Positions 3,120 through 63,917 of a stretch of DNA of 64,000 nucleotides are shown piece by piece. Position 1 is the first letter of the stretch. Every line of letters starts with the position of its first letter. This DNA comes from Candidatus Synechococcus calcipolaris G9. GTDB taxonomy: Bacteria > Cyanobacteriota > Cyanobacteriia > Thermosynechococcales > Thermosynechococcaceae. Location of the stretch: positions 768,001-832,000 of the forward strand of contig NZ_JAKKUT010000002.1 of the NCBI RefSeq assembly GCF_029582805.1. The letters are read 5' to 3'. The translations under genes and the position numbers were made by a program. Below the pieces are notes generated by a model. The model made no database searches, was not told the origin of the DNA, and saw only the letters and a list, made by a program, of their open reading frames with translations.

Positions 3120-3902
3120 CTAGGGCTGAACCTGAAATTCCCCCGTCATGGGCCCCACTGGTGTGCCGTTGGGCAGGGGTAAGATAAACTCCCGTTTCAT
3201 TCCTGCCAGCATATTTTCCCCGGCGATCGCCTGGAGTTGTTCCGGGCTAAATTGAAGGATTTCACCATTTTCACCCTGCACCGCCAAAGACACCCGCCCC
3301 ATAATTTGATGACGGTTCCCACGATTGATCAATGTCACCTTGAGTTGGGTTCCACCCCTGGGATTTGCCACCGCAACGAGGGAATCAAGGCCCACATCCG
3401 CCTGGGCATTGCGAGGAGTGATGTAGACAGAACCCACATATTCAAACAGGGTTTTGATAATGACATTACGCCCCCCCTGTTGGGTTTCTATTTGCCCTAG
3501 GTTAATGGGTAATTGTTCGGCAACAATGCGATAGGTAAGTTCTTGGGGCGGATTGGGATCCCCTAACCAAGTGACCCGTACCCGTTGCCGCTCCCCAGGG
3601 TTCAAGAGAATTTGGGGTGGGTAAACAATAAATTCATCGTCGGCATTGGGATTGGTTTCTGTGCCATCTGGGGCAATGATTCGCTTCACCATGTGGATTT
3701 CTACTGCCACCGGTTGGGTTCCACTACTGACCACCTCAAAGGATTGGGTCGTGCCCCGGCCCACGGGTGCAAATGTTGTTTGCATCGGTGCTAAATGAAA
3801 GGCAGCCCCCGCTAAAACCCCCTCAATTCCCGTAAACATTAAGCCTGTAATCAAACCAGCGAGACTGCCAGCCCTTAACACAGCCCCTAAAACCGTTGTC
3901 AT
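3120..3902 (-). CDS. PapD-like periplasmic pilus chaperone
   Basis: Likely a periplasmic chaperone of the chaperone-usher family, which folds pilin subunits by donating a beta strand. It has an N-terminal hydrophobic signal region, then an immunoglobulin-like domain with FAPVGRGTTQSFEVVS, the mid-domain YPPQILLNPGERQRVRV (typical of the family's conserved arginine/proline region) and a C-terminal beta domain ending in LPNGTPVGPMTGEFQVQP. The ATG at 3902 is chosen because GGAGGA sits eight bases before it; an in-frame TTG five codons upstream overlaps this site and is less likely. It follows a pilin-like gene, but no usher gene is present in the window. Confidence 0.8.
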   Translation of the reverse strand: MTTVLGAVLRAGSLAGLITGLMFTGIEGVLAGAAFHLAPMQTTFAPVGRGTTQSFEVVSSGTQPVAVEIHMVKRIIAPDGTETNPNADDEFIVYPPQILLNPGERQRVRVTWLGDPNPPQELTYRIVAEQLPINLGQIETQQGGRNVIIKTLFEYVGSVYITPRNAQADVGLDSLVAVANPRGGTQLKVTLINRGNRHQIMGRVSLAVQGENGEILQFSPEQLQAIAGENMLAGMKREFILPLPNGTPVGPMTGEFQVQP

Positions 3903-4037
3903 GATCCTATCCTCCAAGACGTTGAGATAGGCCCGGACAAAAGATCCCTCCTTATCAGAGTTTCCATTGCCCGGGGAGAGATGAAGTCAATCCCTATCTC
4001 ACAAACTATCCATGCTCCTGATTCAACGGAAGAGCGA

Positions 4038-4583
4038 CTATTTAGCCGTCAACCGGAAGGTCAGGGTATCGGTATAATCACCGGCAGGACGACCGGCAAC
4101 CGCACTATCGGCAATGGTCACATCCACAGCCCGGTCAACCCCAGCACTGGTGGCAGCATCTGCATTGAAAGCACTGTCTTCCAACGGAGTGCTGACAAAG
4201 GTATCCGCCGTACCCCAACTGCCCGCATTGATGCTAGTCGTGCTGTTATAACGCAAGCCATAGGGCATGGTATGTTCTGTGGCACCCAGCTTAAAAACAC
4301 CACCATTCAAGGACTTAACTTGAACTGTGAAACCATCCGCCGCATTAGACTTGACATTAACCGTACCAATGGCTTGGTTGGTAACACCGGTATACCCATT
4401 AGTCAATGAAATTGTCCCATTGGAAACAGAGAAAGAGATTTGGTTCAACAGTGGATTTTCAACAGTAATTTGATCTCCACCGGTGTCCGCAGGGCTGGTA
4501 TCTGCCAACACTTTGGGCGTTAAGGATAACGCAGCTAGAATAGCAACTGGAACCAAAAATTTGCTTGTATGCCGTACTAACAT
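4038..4583 (-). CDS. Secreted pilin-like beta-rich protein
   Basis: This 181-residue protein has a clear signal peptide (basic start, hydrophobic core VPVAILAALSLTP, cleavage near VLADT). The mature part is rich in Thr, Ser, Gly and Asn with alternating hydrophobic residues and ends in DYTDTLTFRLTAK, the beta-strand tail expected of a subunit exported with a PapD-like chaperone. There are no cysteines. It lies directly upstream of the chaperone gene and is probably its client, either a major subunit or an adhesin. A strong AAGGGGG ribosome site precedes the ATG. The fold and pilin role are inferred from composition and context rather than a recognised motif. Confidence 0.65.
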   Translation of the reverse strand: MLVRHTSKFLVPVAILAALSLTPKVLADTSPADTGGDQITVENPLLNQISFSVSNGTISLTNGYTGVTNQAIGTVNVKSNAADGFTVQVKSLNGGVFKLGATEHTMPYGLRYNSTTSINAGSWGTADTFVSTPLEDSAFNADAATSAGVDRAVDVTIADSAVAGRPAGDYTDTLTFRLTAK

Positions 4584-4933
4584 TTGATTTTCCCCCTTGT
4601 GTGAGCTAAGGAATTGACAAGACCACCATTATTTTGCGTCGCGGGGTGGTACCGTGCCTCTCACAGGAGGTAGGGAATTAAGTCAAGAACCAGAAGTCAC
4701 GTTGTTTATCTAACCTTTATCTAACGGTGATTTGCTGTTTGGCTCTTCTCTACCTACATTTCTATCATCCCTCTAGAAACTGGGAGTGACTAGCGTATTT
4801 CTACCCAAAAATAATTGTTGCGTTTTGTAACACCCCCGTAGAAATCCCGATCCCTATTTCCCTAACGCGGTTCCCTGAATTCTGGCAAAATGGGGTCAAG
4901 TCTCGACCATAGTGAAAACTAAGGACTTTTTGC
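4584..4933. other. Divergent intergenic region with hairpin and direct repeat
   Basis: The 350-base gap between the leftward pilin gene and the rightward potassium transporter should hold both promoters. On the pilin side, ACCACC (4622-4627) and GGTGGT (4645-4650) can form a hairpin in the leader of the pilin mRNA. TTTATCTAAC occurs twice in tandem at about 4705-4725, a possible regulator site. AAGGA lies about eight bases before the transporter ATG. No gene is visible here. Confidence 0.45.
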
Positions 4934-6295
4934 ATGACCGTTCCCCGCACAATCTGCCTAGGCTTTCTCACCGTGATTGCGATCGGGACAGTGCTGTTGA
5001 TGTTGCCCTTCGCCACCAGTAGTGGGGAGTGGAACCAATTCATTGTCGCCCTATTCACTGCCACGTCGGCGGTCTGTGTTACGGGCCATATTGTGGTGGA
5101 TACGGCCACCTATTTTTCACCCCTAGGGCAAGTCATTATCTTGCTCCTGATTCAAGTGGGGGGACTGGGCTATATGACCGCCAACACCTTTCTCATTATC
5201 TTGCTAGGGAGAAAATTTAATCTACGGGAAAAAATTGCCATTCAACAGGCCCTCGATCGCCAGGGCATCCAAGGGGCAAGGCAATTAGTACGCTCCATTT
5301 TCGGCTTAACCCTACTCTTTGAAATCACTGGCATTATTGTGCTTTGGTTTGTTTTCCAGGGACAGTTCAGCCCCCAACAGAGCCTCTGGTTTGCCCTTTT
5401 TCATAGTATTAGTGCCTGGAATAATGCCGGATTTAGTTTATTTAGTGACAACCTAATCGGGTTTCAAATGTCTGTCCCATTAAACTTCATGATCTCTGCC
5501 CTAATTATTTTTGGTGGCATTGGCTATGAGGTAATCTTTGAATTTTATACCTGGATGAGGGAATGCCTGAAACTATGGGCGAATCCTGGTCGTCTAGCTC
5601 GAAAGGCCGCTTTAATGAACTTTAGCCTGAACTTTAAGATTGTGACGAGTACCACCGCCGTCCTTTTGATTTTAGGAACCGTTGCCTTCTTTTTTACGGA
5701 AACGCGATCGCCCCAGGAATTTGATATTTTTTCAACCAGTCAACAAATCCTTTTAGCTTGGTTTCAGTCCGTAACCGCTCGTACCGCCGGGTTCAATACC
5801 ATTGATATTGGCTCAATGGCCAATGGAGCATTAGTGATTACCATTGCCCTGATGTTCATTGGTGGGAGTCCAGGGGGAACTGCCGGTGGCATTAAAACAA
5901 CAACCCTGCGGATTTTAACGGGAATTACCAAATCGACCCTCCGCGGCAAAGAGAATGTCCTTCTCTACGAGCGTCAAGTTCCAACCTCCCTGATTCTCAA
6001 GGCGGTGGCTGTTACCGTAGGCTCCTTTTTTATGGTGATTTTATCGACGACATTTATCGCCATTTCAGAGCCAGATATTGATTTTATTAAGATTTTATTT
6101 GAGGTGGTTTCCGCCTTTGCTACGGTCGGTCTTTCCACAGGAATTACGGCAAGTTTAAGCATCATTTCTAAGGTGTTGCTAATTATTACCATGTTTGTCG
6201 GCCGGGTAGGGGTACTGCTATTGATGGGGGCAGTTATTGGCGATCCGCGGCCCACCTCTGTCCATTACCCAGAAGAAAATCTGTTGGTGGGCTAA
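4934..6295 (+). CDS. ktrB: KtrB/TrkH family potassium uptake protein
   Basis: Membrane subunit of a potassium (often sodium-dependent) uptake system of the inner membrane. The 453-residue length fits KtrB better than the longer TrkH. The four pore-loop repeats typical of the family are visible: TSAVCVTGHIVVDTATYFS, SISAWNNAGFSLFSDN, SVTARTAGFNTIDIG and SAFATVGLSTGITASLS, each with the filter glycine. GGSPGGTAGGIKTTTLR is a family hallmark. The regulatory KtrA/TrkA subunit is not adjacent and would have to be encoded elsewhere. The start ATG has AAGGA eight bases upstream. Confidence 0.92.
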   Translation: MTVPRTICLGFLTVIAIGTVLLMLPFATSSGEWNQFIVALFTATSAVCVTGHIVVDTATYFSPLGQVIILLLIQVGGLGYMTANTFLIILLGRKFNLREKIAIQQALDRQGIQGARQLVRSIFGLTLLFEITGIIVLWFVFQGQFSPQQSLWFALFHSISAWNNAGFSLFSDNLIGFQMSVPLNFMISALIIFGGIGYEVIFEFYTWMRECLKLWANPGRLARKAALMNFSLNFKIVTSTTAVLLILGTVAFFFTETRSPQEFDIFSTSQQILLAWFQSVTARTAGFNTIDIGSMANGALVITIALMFIGGSPGGTAGGIKTTTLRILTGITKSTLRGKENVLLYERQVPTSLILKAVAVTVGSFFMVILSTTFIAISEPDIDFIKILFEVVSAFATVGLSTGITASLSIISKVLLIITMFVGRVGVLLLMGAVIGDPRPTSVHYPEENLLVG

Positions 6296-6363
6296 TTGAT
6301 CCCTTGCTCCTATTGTCCCGCCCTCGAAGGTTGCCAAACCCAGGGTGATTCTTTAATTGACGG

Positions 6364-6591
6364 CTAAATTGAGCGGCGACTAGTATCCTCAGCATCCCCA
6401 CTAATATCTCTCGTCCGTTCGCTCCAACGTGTTATTAAAGTGCGTTTTGGCGGCAAACTGACGACTTTTCTTCCATCTTCTGACTGCCTTTTTTGCCAGT
6501 CTGCAAACATGGCATCTAAGTCGTAATTAAAAGACTTGGCATGTTCTTCACGAATCTTATGAATTTCATCTAGGATCTCGTCTTGCCCCAT
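6364..6591 (-). CDS. Probable antitoxin partner of the PIN toxin
   Basis: A 75-residue charged protein beginning MGQDEILDEIHKIREEHAK, a helix typical of small antitoxins found beside PIN-domain proteins in cyanobacteria. No classical DNA-binding domain is evident, so it may act mainly by binding the toxin. It lies three bases downstream of the PIN gene, and its ribosome site (GGAGA) overlaps the end of that gene, so the two are probably translated from one mRNA. The order is toxin first, the reverse of most VapBC operons. Confidence 0.65.
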   Translation of the reverse strand: MGQDEILDEIHKIREEHAKSFNYDLDAMFADWQKRQSEDGRKVVSLPPKRTLITRWSERTRDISGDAEDTSRRSI

Positions 6592-6594
6592 CGC

Positions 6595-7068
6595 TCAATC
6601 TCCTAATAATTCGTAGGGAGTGCAAATTACAGGTAGTTGGTATCCAAGATCAAAACTGATTTCTTCAAGTTTCCTTTGAATCTGGGCGTTTGCAATATGC
6701 TTACAATTCCAGGTTAGCAGGTAATCCAAGCCGTGGACGGTGGCAGCAGCAATGTGAACCGCATCGTCAGAAGCCTTAGGCGGAAGGTTGCTACGGGAAA
6801 GAAAATGGGCTGCTAAACTTTGCACAGCTTGATTGAGTTCAACTAAGGGGACTTCACTGAGAATTTCCAGCCGATTAGCCGCAATCTCAGGATCTCCCCG
6901 TGCCACCTCATCCAGGACAATTTTTGAGATATAAAGTGTGAAAACACTCCGACGAGACTGCCACCACTCCTTTGTAATTTCTATATTTGCTGCCAGAATC
7001 AGGTTTTTGGTTGATCTAGCTGTGAGATAGCCCAGAATACTGGTTTCGATATAAACAGTTTCATTCAT
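6595..7068 (-). CDS. vapC: VapC-type PIN-domain ribonuclease toxin
   Basis: This 157-residue PIN-domain protein probably cleaves RNA when freed from its antitoxin. The first catalytic acid is in VYIETSILGYLTAR (Glu in the position often held by Asp), the second in VLDEVARGD, the third in ASDDAVHIAAA, and a further conserved segment is LLTWNCKHIAN. This pattern matches the PIN branch found in many cyanobacterial toxin pairs. The ATG has only a weak ribosome site. It is cotranscribed with the small downstream gene. Confidence 0.82.
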   Translation of the reverse strand: MNETVYIETSILGYLTARSTKNLILAANIEITKEWWQSRRSVFTLYISKIVLDEVARGDPEIAANRLEILSEVPLVELNQAVQSLAAHFLSRSNLPPKASDDAVHIAAATVHGLDYLLTWNCKHIANAQIQRKLEEISFDLGYQLPVICTPYELLGD

Positions 7069-7098
7069 ATGCGGAGTATTATTTTTTGCCCTTGAAAT

Positions 7099-8385
7099 TT
7101 AGCTAACTGAATCAATTACCTGACGAATGATTTCATAGGCTGATTCCAGTTGTGCTGGGGTTATACAGTAGGGAGGCATTAGATAAATGGTGTTTCCGAG
7201 GGGGCGAATCAAAAAACCGGCCTCTAAAAAACATTGCCGTAGGCGTGGCCCCAGGGCATCAAAATAATCTCCCCCTCCCTGGGTTTGAATCTCCATGGCA
7301 GCGATCGTGCCACAGGTGCGTTGTTGGTGAACCAGGGGATGATCTCCGAGCCATTTCCCCATGAATTGCCAATGGAGGGTTTCTAGTCGTTGATAAACCT
7401 GGGGTTCTTGCTCCAATAACTCTAGGGATGTGACCCCCACAGCACAGGCCAGGGGATTGCCGGTATAGGAATGGCTATGGAAAAAGGCCTGACTGAGATC
7501 ATCTTTATAAAAGGCTTGATAAATGTCTTCTGTTGCTAAGGTGACGGCTAAGGGTAAACATCCCCCCGATAGTCCTTTGGAGAGACAGAGTAAATCGGGG
7601 GTGGTTCCTGATTTTAAGCAGGCGAAGAGTTCCCCAGTGCGGCCAAAGCCGGTCATCACTTCGTCATAGATGAGTAATAGGCCCGCTTGCCGCGATCGCC
7701 CCTCTAGGGCCTGTAAAAATTCCGGGCGACAGATCCGCATTCCCGCCGCTCCCTGGACAAGGGGTTCAATAAAAATGCCAGCATATTCCTGGCCCTGTTC
7801 GCTGAGGAAGCGATCCAAAACAGCCAATGCCTGGGCCTCTTTTTCATCTACGTGGCGATCGCCAGGATAGGTTGCCGGAAAGGGCACCATATCGAAGGGA
7901 TAGAGCAAGGGTTGGAAGGACTTCCACCAGGGAGAGCTCTGGCCCACTGCCATTGCCCCCAATGTGTCGCCATGGTAGCCCCCCTCAAAACCCAAAAACC
8001 GCGATCGCTGGGGCTGGCCACACCGTTGCCAATATTGGTAAGCCATTTTCAGGGCCACTTCTACGGCCGTTGAACCATTATCCGAAAAAAAGACCCGTGT
8101 TAAGGACTGGGGGACATGATCCAGAAGTTTCCGGGCAAGCTGCTCCGCTGGCTCATGGCTAAACCCTGTAAAAATCACATGTTCTAGCTCTTGGGCCTGC
8201 TGGTAAAGCCGCTCGGCTAAGACCGGATGACCATGGCCATGGATCGTCACCCACCAACTGGAAATACAGTCTAATATTTTGCGTCCGTCCTCCAGTTCTA
8301 AGGTAGCTCCCCTGCCCCGTCGCACCATCAAGGGTGGATCGGCGGTTTTCATTTGGGTAAAGGGCTGCCAAATCGGAGAATCCAT
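7099..8385 (-). CDS. bioA: Adenosylmethionine-8-amino-7-oxononanoate aminotransferase
   Basis: Biotin biosynthesis enzyme that transfers an amino group from S-adenosylmethionine to KAPA, giving DAPA. It is a PLP-dependent class III aminotransferase of normal length (428 residues). Visible landmarks are WQPFTQM near the start, the substrate motif ISSWWVTIHGH, the cofactor-binding GGYHGDTLGAMAVG, DEVMTGFGRTG and the PLP lysine in CLSKGLSGG. WWVTIHGH and QPFTQM point specifically to BioA. It lies 14 bases downstream of the FAH-family gene on the same strand; no other biotin genes are in the window. Confidence 0.95.
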   Translation of the reverse strand: MDSPIWQPFTQMKTADPPLMVRRGRGATLELEDGRKILDCISSWWVTIHGHGHPVLAERLYQQAQELEHVIFTGFSHEPAEQLARKLLDHVPQSLTRVFFSDNGSTAVEVALKMAYQYWQRCGQPQRSRFLGFEGGYHGDTLGAMAVGQSSPWWKSFQPLLYPFDMVPFPATYPGDRHVDEKEAQALAVLDRFLSEQGQEYAGIFIEPLVQGAAGMRICRPEFLQALEGRSRQAGLLLIYDEVMTGFGRTGELFACLKSGTTPDLLCLSKGLSGGCLPLAVTLATEDIYQAFYKDDLSQAFFHSHSYTGNPLACAVGVTSLELLEQEPQVYQRLETLHWQFMGKWLGDHPLVHQQRTCGTIAAMEIQTQGGGDYFDALGPRLRQCFLEAGFLIRPLGNTIYLMPPYCITPAQLESAYEIIRQVIDSVS

Positions 8386-59435: not shown

Positions 59436-59951
59436 ATGAAGCCCTTATCCTTCAACCTCTATTCTGGACTCTCTGGCTTTGGTCTAGGGATCGTCTTGGG
59501 GTTCGTCACTAGTTTGCCCAGTGCGGCCCAGGGGGCAAGTGGCTGCGGCTTTACCCAAGTGGTGGGTCTCAATTTTGGTAATTATGATGTCATGGCCCCA
59601 ACTCCGACGGATGCGGTGGGGAGTTTTAGTTTCACCTGTCGGGGTGGGGGTGGGGGAGGCGGAAGCTTTAATAATATTCCCGTCACCATTAGTTTAAGTC
59701 GGGGCAACAGTGATAGCTACACCCCGCGACGGATGATTTTTGAATCCAGTACCCTGGAATATAATTTGTATCTAGATGCTGCTCGTAGTCGCGTTTGGGG
59801 CGATGGCACCAGCGGTACAAACCAGAACGGCCCCTTTGTTCCAGGCAATAATGTGGGCAATACTATTGAGATTTTTGGTCGGATTCCACCGGATCAGTGG
59901 GTCACACCAGGGCAGTATAGTGATCAGATTGTGATTACAATTCAATTTTAG
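59436..59951 (+). CDS. Secreted spore-coat-U (SCPU) domain protein, Csu-pilin type
   Basis: A 171-residue protein with a signal peptide (cleavage near SAAQG) and an SCPU domain. Typical segments are CGFTQVVGLNFGNYDVMAPT, an FTCRG second cysteine, TLEYNLYLDAARSRVWGDGT and a C-terminal PGQYSDQIVITIQF donor-strand-like tail. A run of glycines (GGGGGGGS) interrupts the middle. Csu pilins are exported by chaperone-usher systems; no usher or chaperone is adjacent, so the chaperone at 3120 could serve it, which is speculation. Confidence 0.85.
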   Translation: MKPLSFNLYSGLSGFGLGIVLGFVTSLPSAAQGASGCGFTQVVGLNFGNYDVMAPTPTDAVGSFSFTCRGGGGGGGSFNNIPVTISLSRGNSDSYTPRRMIFESSTLEYNLYLDAARSRVWGDGTSGTNQNGPFVPGNNVGNTIEIFGRIPPDQWVTPGQYSDQIVITIQF

Positions 59952-59967: not shown

Positions 59968-60942
59968 TTAATCTAAGGTCAGGGTTGGTGCGCTTTTAGC
60001 ATCCCTTGGATCAATGTTGCGGCGGTGGTTCATCACCATATCAATCCAGGGTGCATAGAACGAGACTCGAGTATCACTGAAAAATTCACCGAAGGAACCA
60101 TTACTGATTTCATCATCAATATCTACGCTGTCAGTAATCATAAAAAAGCCGCGATCGCTAAAACCCCAAGAAGTTACAGCGGCAACTTTGCCATCGATAA
60201 AGCAGGGGCCACCGGAATCCCCTGCCCCTGAGCCTGCTTCATTTTTACCCAGACCCAAATCTGCCAACCGAGGAAAATATCGACCAAAGGCATCCCGCGT
60301 AGGAGTCCCGTCATCAAAGTCATACATTAATTGGCTGCGGGGTACCACTGTGGATAAATCACCGTCAGTCACGGGTATAAAAATATCCAGGAGGGCTTCA
60401 TAGCGATTTTGACCCCAGTGGCGATTCAAGTCACTATTAGAGGTTCGATCTTCTCCGGTGCTGCCTAGCCCAATGTAGCCATAGCCCACCTTCGTAAATA
60501 CTTTACCGATTTCATCCTGATCTCGATAAATATCATAGGCTTCAATGAAATCTGGCACAACTGCATCCAGTTCTAGCAAGGCAAGGTCATAGCCCTCCAC
60601 GGCAAGTTTCCCTTTCCAACTGGGATGAATAAAATAACGGGCAACCCGGGCCTTCAAGTTCCGTGGTTCCCGCCGAAACACCACCGTGATCTCTTTGTCG
60701 GGGATGGGGTCGCCTTTATTGAGGCAATGGGCCGCAGTGAGGACAAATTGTTTACCCTTCAAAAGGGTACCGCTACAGTGAACTGGCTCTAGCAGTACCA
60801 CTCCCGTATATTGATCCAGGGGCAAGGGTTGGGTGGTCGGACTATGGGCAAAGGCACTGACAATGGTGTGGCCGGGATGTTGCCCAAATAAAATACACCC
60901 TAGGGCGATCGCCGCCACGAAGAATAACTTCACCCACTTCAT
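59968..60942 (-). CDS. Secreted trypsin-family serine protease
   Basis: A 324-residue S1-family protease with a signal peptide (VKLFFVAAIALGCILFGQ). Catalytic triad: His in LTAAHCLNKGD, Asp in DLALLELDAVV and Ser in GAGDSGGPCFIDG. Two cysteines beside the triad (HCSGTLL, AHCLN) probably form the classical disulphide. It lies on the opposite strand to the SCPU gene with only 16 bases between stops. It is close to animal-type trypsins, rather than to DegP proteases. Confidence 0.9.
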   Translation of the reverse strand: MKWVKLFFVAAIALGCILFGQHPGHTIVSAFAHSPTTQPLPLDQYTGVVLLEPVHCSGTLLKGKQFVLTAAHCLNKGDPIPDKEITVVFRREPRNLKARVARYFIHPSWKGKLAVEGYDLALLELDAVVPDFIEAYDIYRDQDEIGKVFTKVGYGYIGLGSTGEDRTSNSDLNRHWGQNRYEALLDIFIPVTDGDLSTVVPRSQLMYDFDDGTPTRDAFGRYFPRLADLGLGKNEAGSGAGDSGGPCFIDGKVAAVTSWGFSDRGFFMITDSVDIDDEISNGSFGEFFSDTRVSFYAPWIDMVMNHRRNIDPRDAKSAPTLTLD

Positions 60943-62267: not shown

Positions 62268-63428
62268 TCAAGCTAAACCCAGGCATTGCTCTACATCGGT
62301 CAAAATCAGATCTGTGAGAATTTTCTGGGTATATAGACAATGGAGGGTTTCGGTGGAGGCAAAGCTACCATTTTCCCAATATTTATTGCTGGGGGCACCC
62401 CCACCACAAACAGGAAAATAATCACAGGTTTGGCGACAGGCTGTTACCCCCGCTTGAATATCCTGATAGATTCGTTGAAAGGTTTCGGTTTGGCAGACGG
62501 CTTCAAAGGAATCAGTGCAAACATTTCCAAGGATAAAGCGGCCGTAGTCGGAACTGGTCATACCCAGAAGCTCCGGGGAATAGGTGGCAAAATTTCCATT
62601 CACGTCCACGTTCACCATGGCAAAGGGGGTACATAGTTGATTACGGCCCATAGCTTTATCGGTGTAGAGGTGTTCACTCACCCGATCAAATTCCCGAACT
62701 TTGAAGGTTCCTTTCGTGGCTTTGGTGAGTTGCCAGAACCGTGCCATGAAGCCTCGATACTGCGATCGCGTGTCATTTTGACTGAGGGAAGATTCCTGAT
62801 TTGACCCTTCAATTTCCTCAATATTAAAACCAACATTATGAATCCCTTCTTGCTGGAAGAACTCAAAAATTTCATCAGGGTAGGCCAGGGCATCCTTTGT
62901 CAGTACGGCAATAATATGAAAGTTGATCTGGTTATTTTGTAGGTGCTTGATCCCCCGCAGGGTTGCCTGGTGGGTTCCTAGTCCGGTGCGGGTTTTCCGG
63001 TGGGCATCGTGGAGAAAGGCCGGCCCATCTAAGCTTACGCCAACGGAAATTTGCTCGGACTTGAAAAAATCACACCAGTCCGGGGTGATCAATGTGCCAT
63101 TGGTCTGAATCGCATGGGTGACATAGCATTGACGGCTATTGTGCTGCTGCTCTAGGGCGTTAATCTGGGCAAAGGCCTTTTGATAAAACTCAAGGGGTAG
63201 GGTGAGGGGTTCACCGGCATGCCAACAGACCGTGAAATGCTTTCCCAGGAAGCGACTGCTAAACAGATTTTTGAAGAGTGGCTCTAGGAGAGCTAGATCC
63301 ATGCTCTGCCGTTGCGATCGCCCCGGCAGATAGCAATAGTCGCAGTCAATATTACAAAAGGGCGTAGGTTGAATGACCACCAGCCGAAAGGGGCCAAACC
63401 GAGCGAGTTCTGCGTCACTAATCATCAT
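62268..63428 (-). CDS. grrM: GrrM/OscB-like radical SAM/SPASM peptide maturase
   Basis: A 386-residue radical SAM enzyme. The 4Fe-4S motif C25-x3-C29-x2-C32 lies in PFCNIDCDYCYLPG; GEPL occurs in WHAGEPLTLPLEF; and the C-terminal SPASM-type region holds cysteines in NQLCTPFAMVN, VTACRQTCDYFPVCGGG and ETLHCLYTQK for further clusters. The start FGPFRLVVIQPTPFCNIDCD and the ending VCGGGAPSNKYWENG fit the GrrM/OscB group, which makes three-residue cyclophane links in small peptides. It lies downstream of its probable substrate gene at 63555, on the same strand, with 126 bases between. Confidence 0.9.
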   Translation of the reverse strand: MMISDAELARFGPFRLVVIQPTPFCNIDCDYCYLPGRSQRQSMDLALLEPLFKNLFSSRFLGKHFTVCWHAGEPLTLPLEFYQKAFAQINALEQQHNSRQCYVTHAIQTNGTLITPDWCDFFKSEQISVGVSLDGPAFLHDAHRKTRTGLGTHQATLRGIKHLQNNQINFHIIAVLTKDALAYPDEIFEFFQQEGIHNVGFNIEEIEGSNQESSLSQNDTRSQYRGFMARFWQLTKATKGTFKVREFDRVSEHLYTDKAMGRNQLCTPFAMVNVDVNGNFATYSPELLGMTSSDYGRFILGNVCTDSFEAVCQTETFQRIYQDIQAGVTACRQTCDYFPVCGGGAPSNKYWENGSFASTETLHCLYTQKILTDLILTDVEQCLGLA

Positions 63429-63554
63429 GGCAGTTAGGGCAGGGCTTCAATTTGCCGCAATGCCGCAACCAACGGCAGGAATAGGTTTGCTTAGTGATTC
63501 CATAACCGTCAGATAGATCTAATTACTAAATTACTTTTAATTATTACTTTACTC

Positions 63555-63917
63555 TTAATTACTAAAGTCTGACCAAATATCTTCCCAGTAGGCCCCATCA
63601 TTAAAATTAATCCAGGTGTCTTCCCAATAGGCCAACTGCTGATTTTCTGAGACGGGAGTGAGTCCCATGGACTGAATTTGATCTTTGCCTTGCTGAAGGC
63701 GATCGCGCACCGTGGAAAGACGCTGGGCTAGGGAGAGGCTAGGGTCTCCATTGCCAAGGGTGGTATCGGGTACATCAGGGTTAGAAGCTGCTTCCCCTAC
63801 CCCTCCTGTGGTGACAAGGGTTAATAAAAACAGTAGGCTGGCAGTGCCGTGGCTTACAATACCGTTGTTATTCGGCATAATCCGATGCAGAAGTCCTTCA
63901 CGTCTAGGGTCACTCAT
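63555..63917 (-). CDS. grrA: Probable GrrA/OscA-like RiPP precursor with two aromatic-acidic repeats
   Basis: A 120-residue small protein: hydrophobic leader (ASLLFLLTLVTT, residues 26-37) with cleavage-like GEAAS, then a linker with SLAQRLSTVRDRLQQGKDQI. The C-terminal end comprises two 12-residue repeats, AYWEDTWINFND (96-107) and AYWEDIWSDFSN (109-120), separated by Gly. It contains six aromatic-X-Asp/Asn triplets: W98-E-D, W102-I-N, F105-N-D, W111-E-D, W115-S-D and F118-S-N. The Gly-rich repeats common in GrrA are absent. An alternative start at residue 14 (MPNNNG, 63878) is plausible and gives 107 residues. It precedes the maturase gene. Confidence 0.8.
   Translation of the reverse strand: MSDPRREGLLHRIMPNNNGIVSHGTASLLFLLTLVTTGGVGEAASNPDVPDTTLGNGDPSLSLAQRLSTVRDRLQQGKDQIQSMGLTPVSENQQLAYWEDTWINFNDGAYWEDIWSDFSN

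Follow-up and report, generated by a model that had tools for sequence, protein, structure and literature searches.

A two-gene cassette of Candidatus Synechococcus calcipolaris G9 predicted to encode an OscB-type triceptide with a glycine-poor core

Among the described systems closest to the locus reported here is the OscA/OscB triceptide system (maturase OIP69445.1; Nguyen et al., 2020, reviewed in PMC11002830), in which OscB forms bonds between Trp C7 and the beta carbon of Asn or Asp and between Phe C4 and the beta carbon of Asn, with the two partners at positions i and i+2 (PMC11002830). Maturases of the same model family (TIGR04261) are found in the GrrA/GrrM/GrrP loci, whose GrrA and GrrP components are recognized by TIGR04260 and TIGR04262, and structures are available for ChlB (PDB 9gm3 and 9gmc), which was solved with a precursor leader, acts on a leader-bearing precursor and is termed a multiple cyclophane synthase in the title of a reference. 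The window, that is, the whole stretch of 64,000 nucleotides of Ca. S. calcipolaris G9 DNA analyzed here, carries a cassette that is, with high probability, an OscB-type triceptide (three-residue cyclophane RiPP) two-gene system with predicted cross-links, and we are less sure of the number of rings in the product than of the kind of system. Like OscA/OscB, the cassette combines a TIGR04261 maturase with W-x-N, W-x-D and F-x-N triplets in the i,i+2 register, a likeness drawn from the model and the described rule. The aromatic-to-Asp/Asn rule invoked in the earlier note is indeed the one documented for OscB, and five of the six triplets of the window fit the links named for that enzyme (PMC11002830), FND (Phe to Asp) being the sole extension. 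The enzyme family and its substrate rule are already described; the specific core appears to be new.

Both open reading frames of the earlier note were found where it had placed them, on the minus strand, with the precursor gene first and 127 nt between the two. The OscA/GrrA-type precursor (63555..63917, minus strand, 120 residues) is assigned on the basis of its open reading frame, its orthologue in another cyanobacterium (genome G009) and the match of its leader to a profile of glycine-rich GrrA leaders, and it matched nothing in Pfam or NCBIfam. The GrrM/OscB-type radical SAM/SPASM peptide maturase (62268..63428, minus strand, 386 residues) is assigned through TIGR04261, PF04055, the alignment of its cysteines and a structure model. 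Similarity between the precursor and its G009 relative was strongest from residue 14 onward, suggesting a possible alternative start at the ATG of Met14 (63876..63878, minus strand), which would shorten the N terminus to a length typical of GrrA precursors. A promoter and terminator scan of the cassette region returned nothing exceeding shuffles. Elsewhere in the window, a Spore Coat Protein U-domain protein (59436-59951, plus strand) is convergent with a trypsin-like protease (59968-60942, minus strand), both having signal-like N termini; the latter was weighed as a candidate leader protease and dropped, as two genes separate it from the pair and no such protease adjoins the pair in G009.

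The proposal of a GrrM/OscB-like radical SAM/SPASM enzyme was borne out by profile searches, in which the maturase matched TIGR04261 (cyclophane-forming radical SAM/SPASM peptide maturase GrrM/OscB) with 561.8 bits against a cut-off of 310, over positions 1-363 of the 363 in the profile, and the second-best model, AmcB, stayed under its own cut-off. PF04055 was matched as well, and the Pfam SPASM model scored below its cut-off (14.8 vs. 21.5). The CX3CX2C radical SAM cysteines (C25, C29, and C32) and the C-terminal C331, C335, C341, and C364 were invariant in 13 of 13 relatives, as was C119; with its four cysteines, the C-terminal set would be enough to bind one auxiliary cluster. The AlphaFold2 model of the maturase (mean pLDDT 83) matched the anaerobic sulfatase-maturating enzyme (anSME) and, as a full-length fold, ChlB (TM 0.74, 21% identity), although ChlB differs in that an HExxH hydroxylase is described as part of the same fusion protein and in that it acts on another type of precursor.

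The core peptide WEDTWINFNDGAYWEDIWSDFSN occupies residues 98-120 of the precursor (63558..63626, minus strand), with four Trp and two Phe among its 23 residues, and contains predicted sites for up to six three-residue cyclophanes, considering its six [WF]-x-[DN] triplets, the family-wide i+2 register and the chemistry of OscB. These triplets (WED98, WIN102, FND105, WED111, WSD115, and FSN118) do not overlap, are headed by every Trp and Phe outside the leader and lie exactly at the positions listed earlier. The description of two near-identical 12-residue repeats did not hold, since YWEDTWINFND and YWEDIWSDFSN agree at 6 of 11 positions with a period of 13 (residue 98 to residue 111), and a repeat at the DNA level was sought in the core and not found. 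All Trp and Phe headed non-overlapping triplets in 5 of 2,000,000 composition-preserving shuffles of the 23-residue core. If the core is one duplicated unit, the figure becomes about 1 in 1,000 per unit, and because such a duplication is possible the composition test is not decisive by itself. A chance origin of the triplet pattern is unlikely, and for this the G009 orthologue is stronger evidence than the shuffles.

The precursor was present in 2 of 29 genomes of the family, its own and G009, and searches of the wider class, the family and a plasmid collection returned no further orthologue. One candidate, L053, was set aside, being weak (E=0.001) and having an internal stop and a match that stops before the end of the core. 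In G009 the two genes are adjacent and in the same order, with flanking genes unrelated to those of the window, and the occurrence of the same pair in different neighbourhoods indicates that precursor and maturase behave as a two-gene unit. The two maturases are 69% identical and the two cores are identical at 21 of 23 residues, the changes (T101S and I103V) affecting no ring-forming position; all six triplets and all twelve ring-forming residues are kept, including those of FND and FSN. The leaders have diverged far more than the cores, and over much of the core the two loci agree in their DNA as well. The pairing reported in the earlier note therefore extends to an orthologous locus with conserved triplets, and taken alone, with few differences, the conservation of the core would be a weak sign of selection on these triplets.

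A variant compatible with the OscB-type reading is that only a subset of the triplets is cross-linked, such as those headed by Trp or a single one in each repeat, either because adjacent rings clash or because F-x-D is a poor substrate. Consecutive triplets are separated by 0, 1, or 3 residues, with 102-104 abutting directly on 105-107 and 115-117 on 118-120, and at this packing the six rings may not all form; besides, a Phe-Asn link is named for OscB and a Phe-Asp link is not (PMC11002830). The complete set of ring-forming residues retained in G009, Phe triplets included, speaks against the variant, as do the long runs of abutting triplets in other GrrM-family precursors such as L043 and L109, and we give it a minority, although appreciable, chance of being correct.

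The cassette resembles the GrrA/GrrM/GrrP loci in its maturase family, in the kinship of its leader and in its [WF]-x-[DN] triplets, whereas its core has 4% glycine against roughly 20-48%, its precursor lacks a TIGR04260 match and GrrP is not part of the cassette. The leader contains a hydrophobic N-terminal segment at about residues 24-42 and an RL..V...L stretch. Comparison with GrrA-type models gave a divided outcome: the full TIGR04260 model did not match the precursor at E up to 1, and in this genome matched only the precursor of contig C8, whereas with a profile of 37 glycine-rich cyanobacterial GrrA leaders the window leader scored 18.8 bits and the G009 leader 14.9, with 8.3 as the highest score among 1,000 shuffled leaders. 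The shared parts are a hydrophobic stretch followed by an RL..(V/I)...L stretch, and the profile match indicates that the precursor is a diverged relative of GrrA, though one below TIGR04260. GrrP (TIGR04262) was above its cut-off in this genome only on C8, beside canonical GrrA and GrrM. This complete canonical GrrP-GrrA-GrrM locus (genome G000, contig C8:278673-281169; L035, L136) and the window cassette together suggest that the repertoire of the organism probably includes two distinct cyclophane peptides.

A wider survey placed the window core among its relatives. In a sample of 390 genomes of the class, 64 had a TIGR04261 match above the cut-off, and scanning named genomes yielded 80 GrrM-family loci, including some in proteobacteria, Bacteroidota, verrucomicrobia and actinobacteria. 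Precursors were sought as small triplet-rich ORFs near maturases, which amounts to selection on the motif, and distant ORFs were hence used as a control: across 110 GrrM-family loci, at least five [WF]x[DN] triplets occurred in 76 of 275 small ORFs just upstream of the maturase vs. 1 of 1,618 distant ORFs, and the same count at other spacings gave 0 (i+3), 0 (i+4), and 4 (i+1). This upstream enrichment at i+2 but not at i+3 or i+4 identifies the i,i+2 register as a property of the GrrM family. Core glycine content ranged from 0 to 48% among 74 precursors beside GrrM-family genes (below 18% in 26 of them), and several glycine-poor cores were as acidic as that of the window or more so, such as FDDFDDFDD... 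(L037), L109, and L110. The window core falls inside the range of the GrrM family. It had been regarded as unusual for being rich in Trp and Asp instead of glycine, a view that finds no support, since OscB takes W-x-N, W-x-D, and F-x-N and glycine-poor, even more acidic cores are common beside GrrM-family genes. Glycine-poor cyanobacterial GrrM loci (L037, L057, L039, L041, L043, L044, and L046) share the same or a neighbouring maturase clade and tandem aromatic-x-Asp/Asn triplets with the window, although they repeat F-D-D, F-G-D, W-N-D, and W-S-N, whereas the window unit is WED-x-W-x-[DN]-F-x-[DN].

The survey also returned loci that are of interest in their own right. The longest cores seen were those of L109 and L110, from alphaproteobacterial MAGs, in which the ORF upstream of a GrrM-like gene (3893-5173) contains 29 and 26 gapless tandem W-x-D/N triplets, respectively. 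In L045, a 90-residue ORF lies 18 nt upstream of the maturase (6312-7490) and has a leader like that of GrrA but lacks aromatic triplets beyond it, so that its core seems to have been lost or replaced while the maturase remained intact. The actinobacterial L125, L126, L127, and L130 (and L124, which is alike) encode distant maturase relatives, each after a short ORF ending in a conserved CAWNHFENIPTFYNWNNRPR, which is a different kind of core. At a contig end of L040 (minus strand, about 7350-7463), a truncated precursor with GDWGDWGDWVDWGDWADWSDWGD carries a W-x-D core beside a maturase of the same clade as that of the window.

In the maturase phylogeny, the sequences from the window and from G009 fell in a clade of 14 cyanobacterial maturases (support 99/98), whose readable precursors have tandem triplets with no glycine linkers between them; in the truncated precursor of L040 glycine is abundant and occurs solely as the middle residue of W-G-D. 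Judged by its maturase sequence, the window cassette is a member of this glycine-poor, OscB-like clade. Within cyanobacteria, a single change on the tree separates glycine-poor from glycine-rich cores (SH-aLRT 93), and the wider tree requires four such changes. Four maturases without a core label fall among the glycine-poor rows. Outside cyanobacteria, 15 of 19 rows are glycine-poor as well, and glycine-rich linkers may therefore be the derived state on this tree, which is midpoint-rooted and has some rows on long branches. The joint proposition that the product would be an acidic peptide packed throughout with rings, its six Trp/Phe cyclophanes being contiguous or nearly so, F-x-D included, and that glycine-poor tandem triplets would be the older arrangement in the GrrM/OscB family, with the glycine-rich linkers of GrrA as a later cyanobacterial addition, is tentative and, in our estimation, rather doubtful as a whole.

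The presence of the complete GrrP-GrrA-GrrM locus on C8 also raises the alternative that the window precursor is degenerate or orphan and that its maturase acts mainly on the canonical glycine-rich GrrA encoded there. We consider this very improbable, because the C8 locus owns a higher-scoring GrrM, the window maturase groups with maturases having glycine-poor cores, and the precursor and maturase genes lie side by side here and in G009 despite their differing neighbourhoods. As a further alternative, suggested by its signal-like N terminus and its lack of Pfam and NCBIfam matches, the precursor could simply be a secreted acidic protein with a C terminus that happens to satisfy the triplet rule, whether by chance or through an unrelated constraint. 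This is scarcely credible given the shuffle test (5 in 2,000,000), the conserved pairing, the homology of its leader to GrrA leaders and the family-wide tie of the i+2 motif to GrrM.

The OscB-type cyclophane interpretation is well supported by this family evidence, from which the cross-links themselves are predicted. Speaking against it are the F-x-D triplet, the tight packing of the triplets, the lack of GrrP in the cassette and the finding of a single close orthologue for the precursor. The radical SAM maturase would recognize the precursor leader and, with each core Trp or Phe as residue i, bond one of its ring carbons to the beta carbon of the i+2 residue (Asp or Asn), and up to six strained cyclophanes would result, each at the cost of two hydrogens (about 2 Da). 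The modified peptide may then be exported by the general secretion route, as suggested by the signal-like hydrophobic leader, and this would be followed by trimming by a host peptidase, since the two-gene cassette encodes no dedicated protease or transporter; any biological role of the peptide would be equally a matter of prediction.

Altogether, the cassette represents a compact test substrate for OscB-type enzymes, as it combines a short core, two diverged repeats, every residue type covered by the known rule as well as F-x-D, and a relative that offers a natural variant. Moreover, our survey suggests that the feature held constant across the GrrM family is the aromatic-x-Asp/Asn triplet rather than a high glycine content, and searches based on the glycine-rich GrrA model would therefore miss a sizeable share of the precursors in this family.
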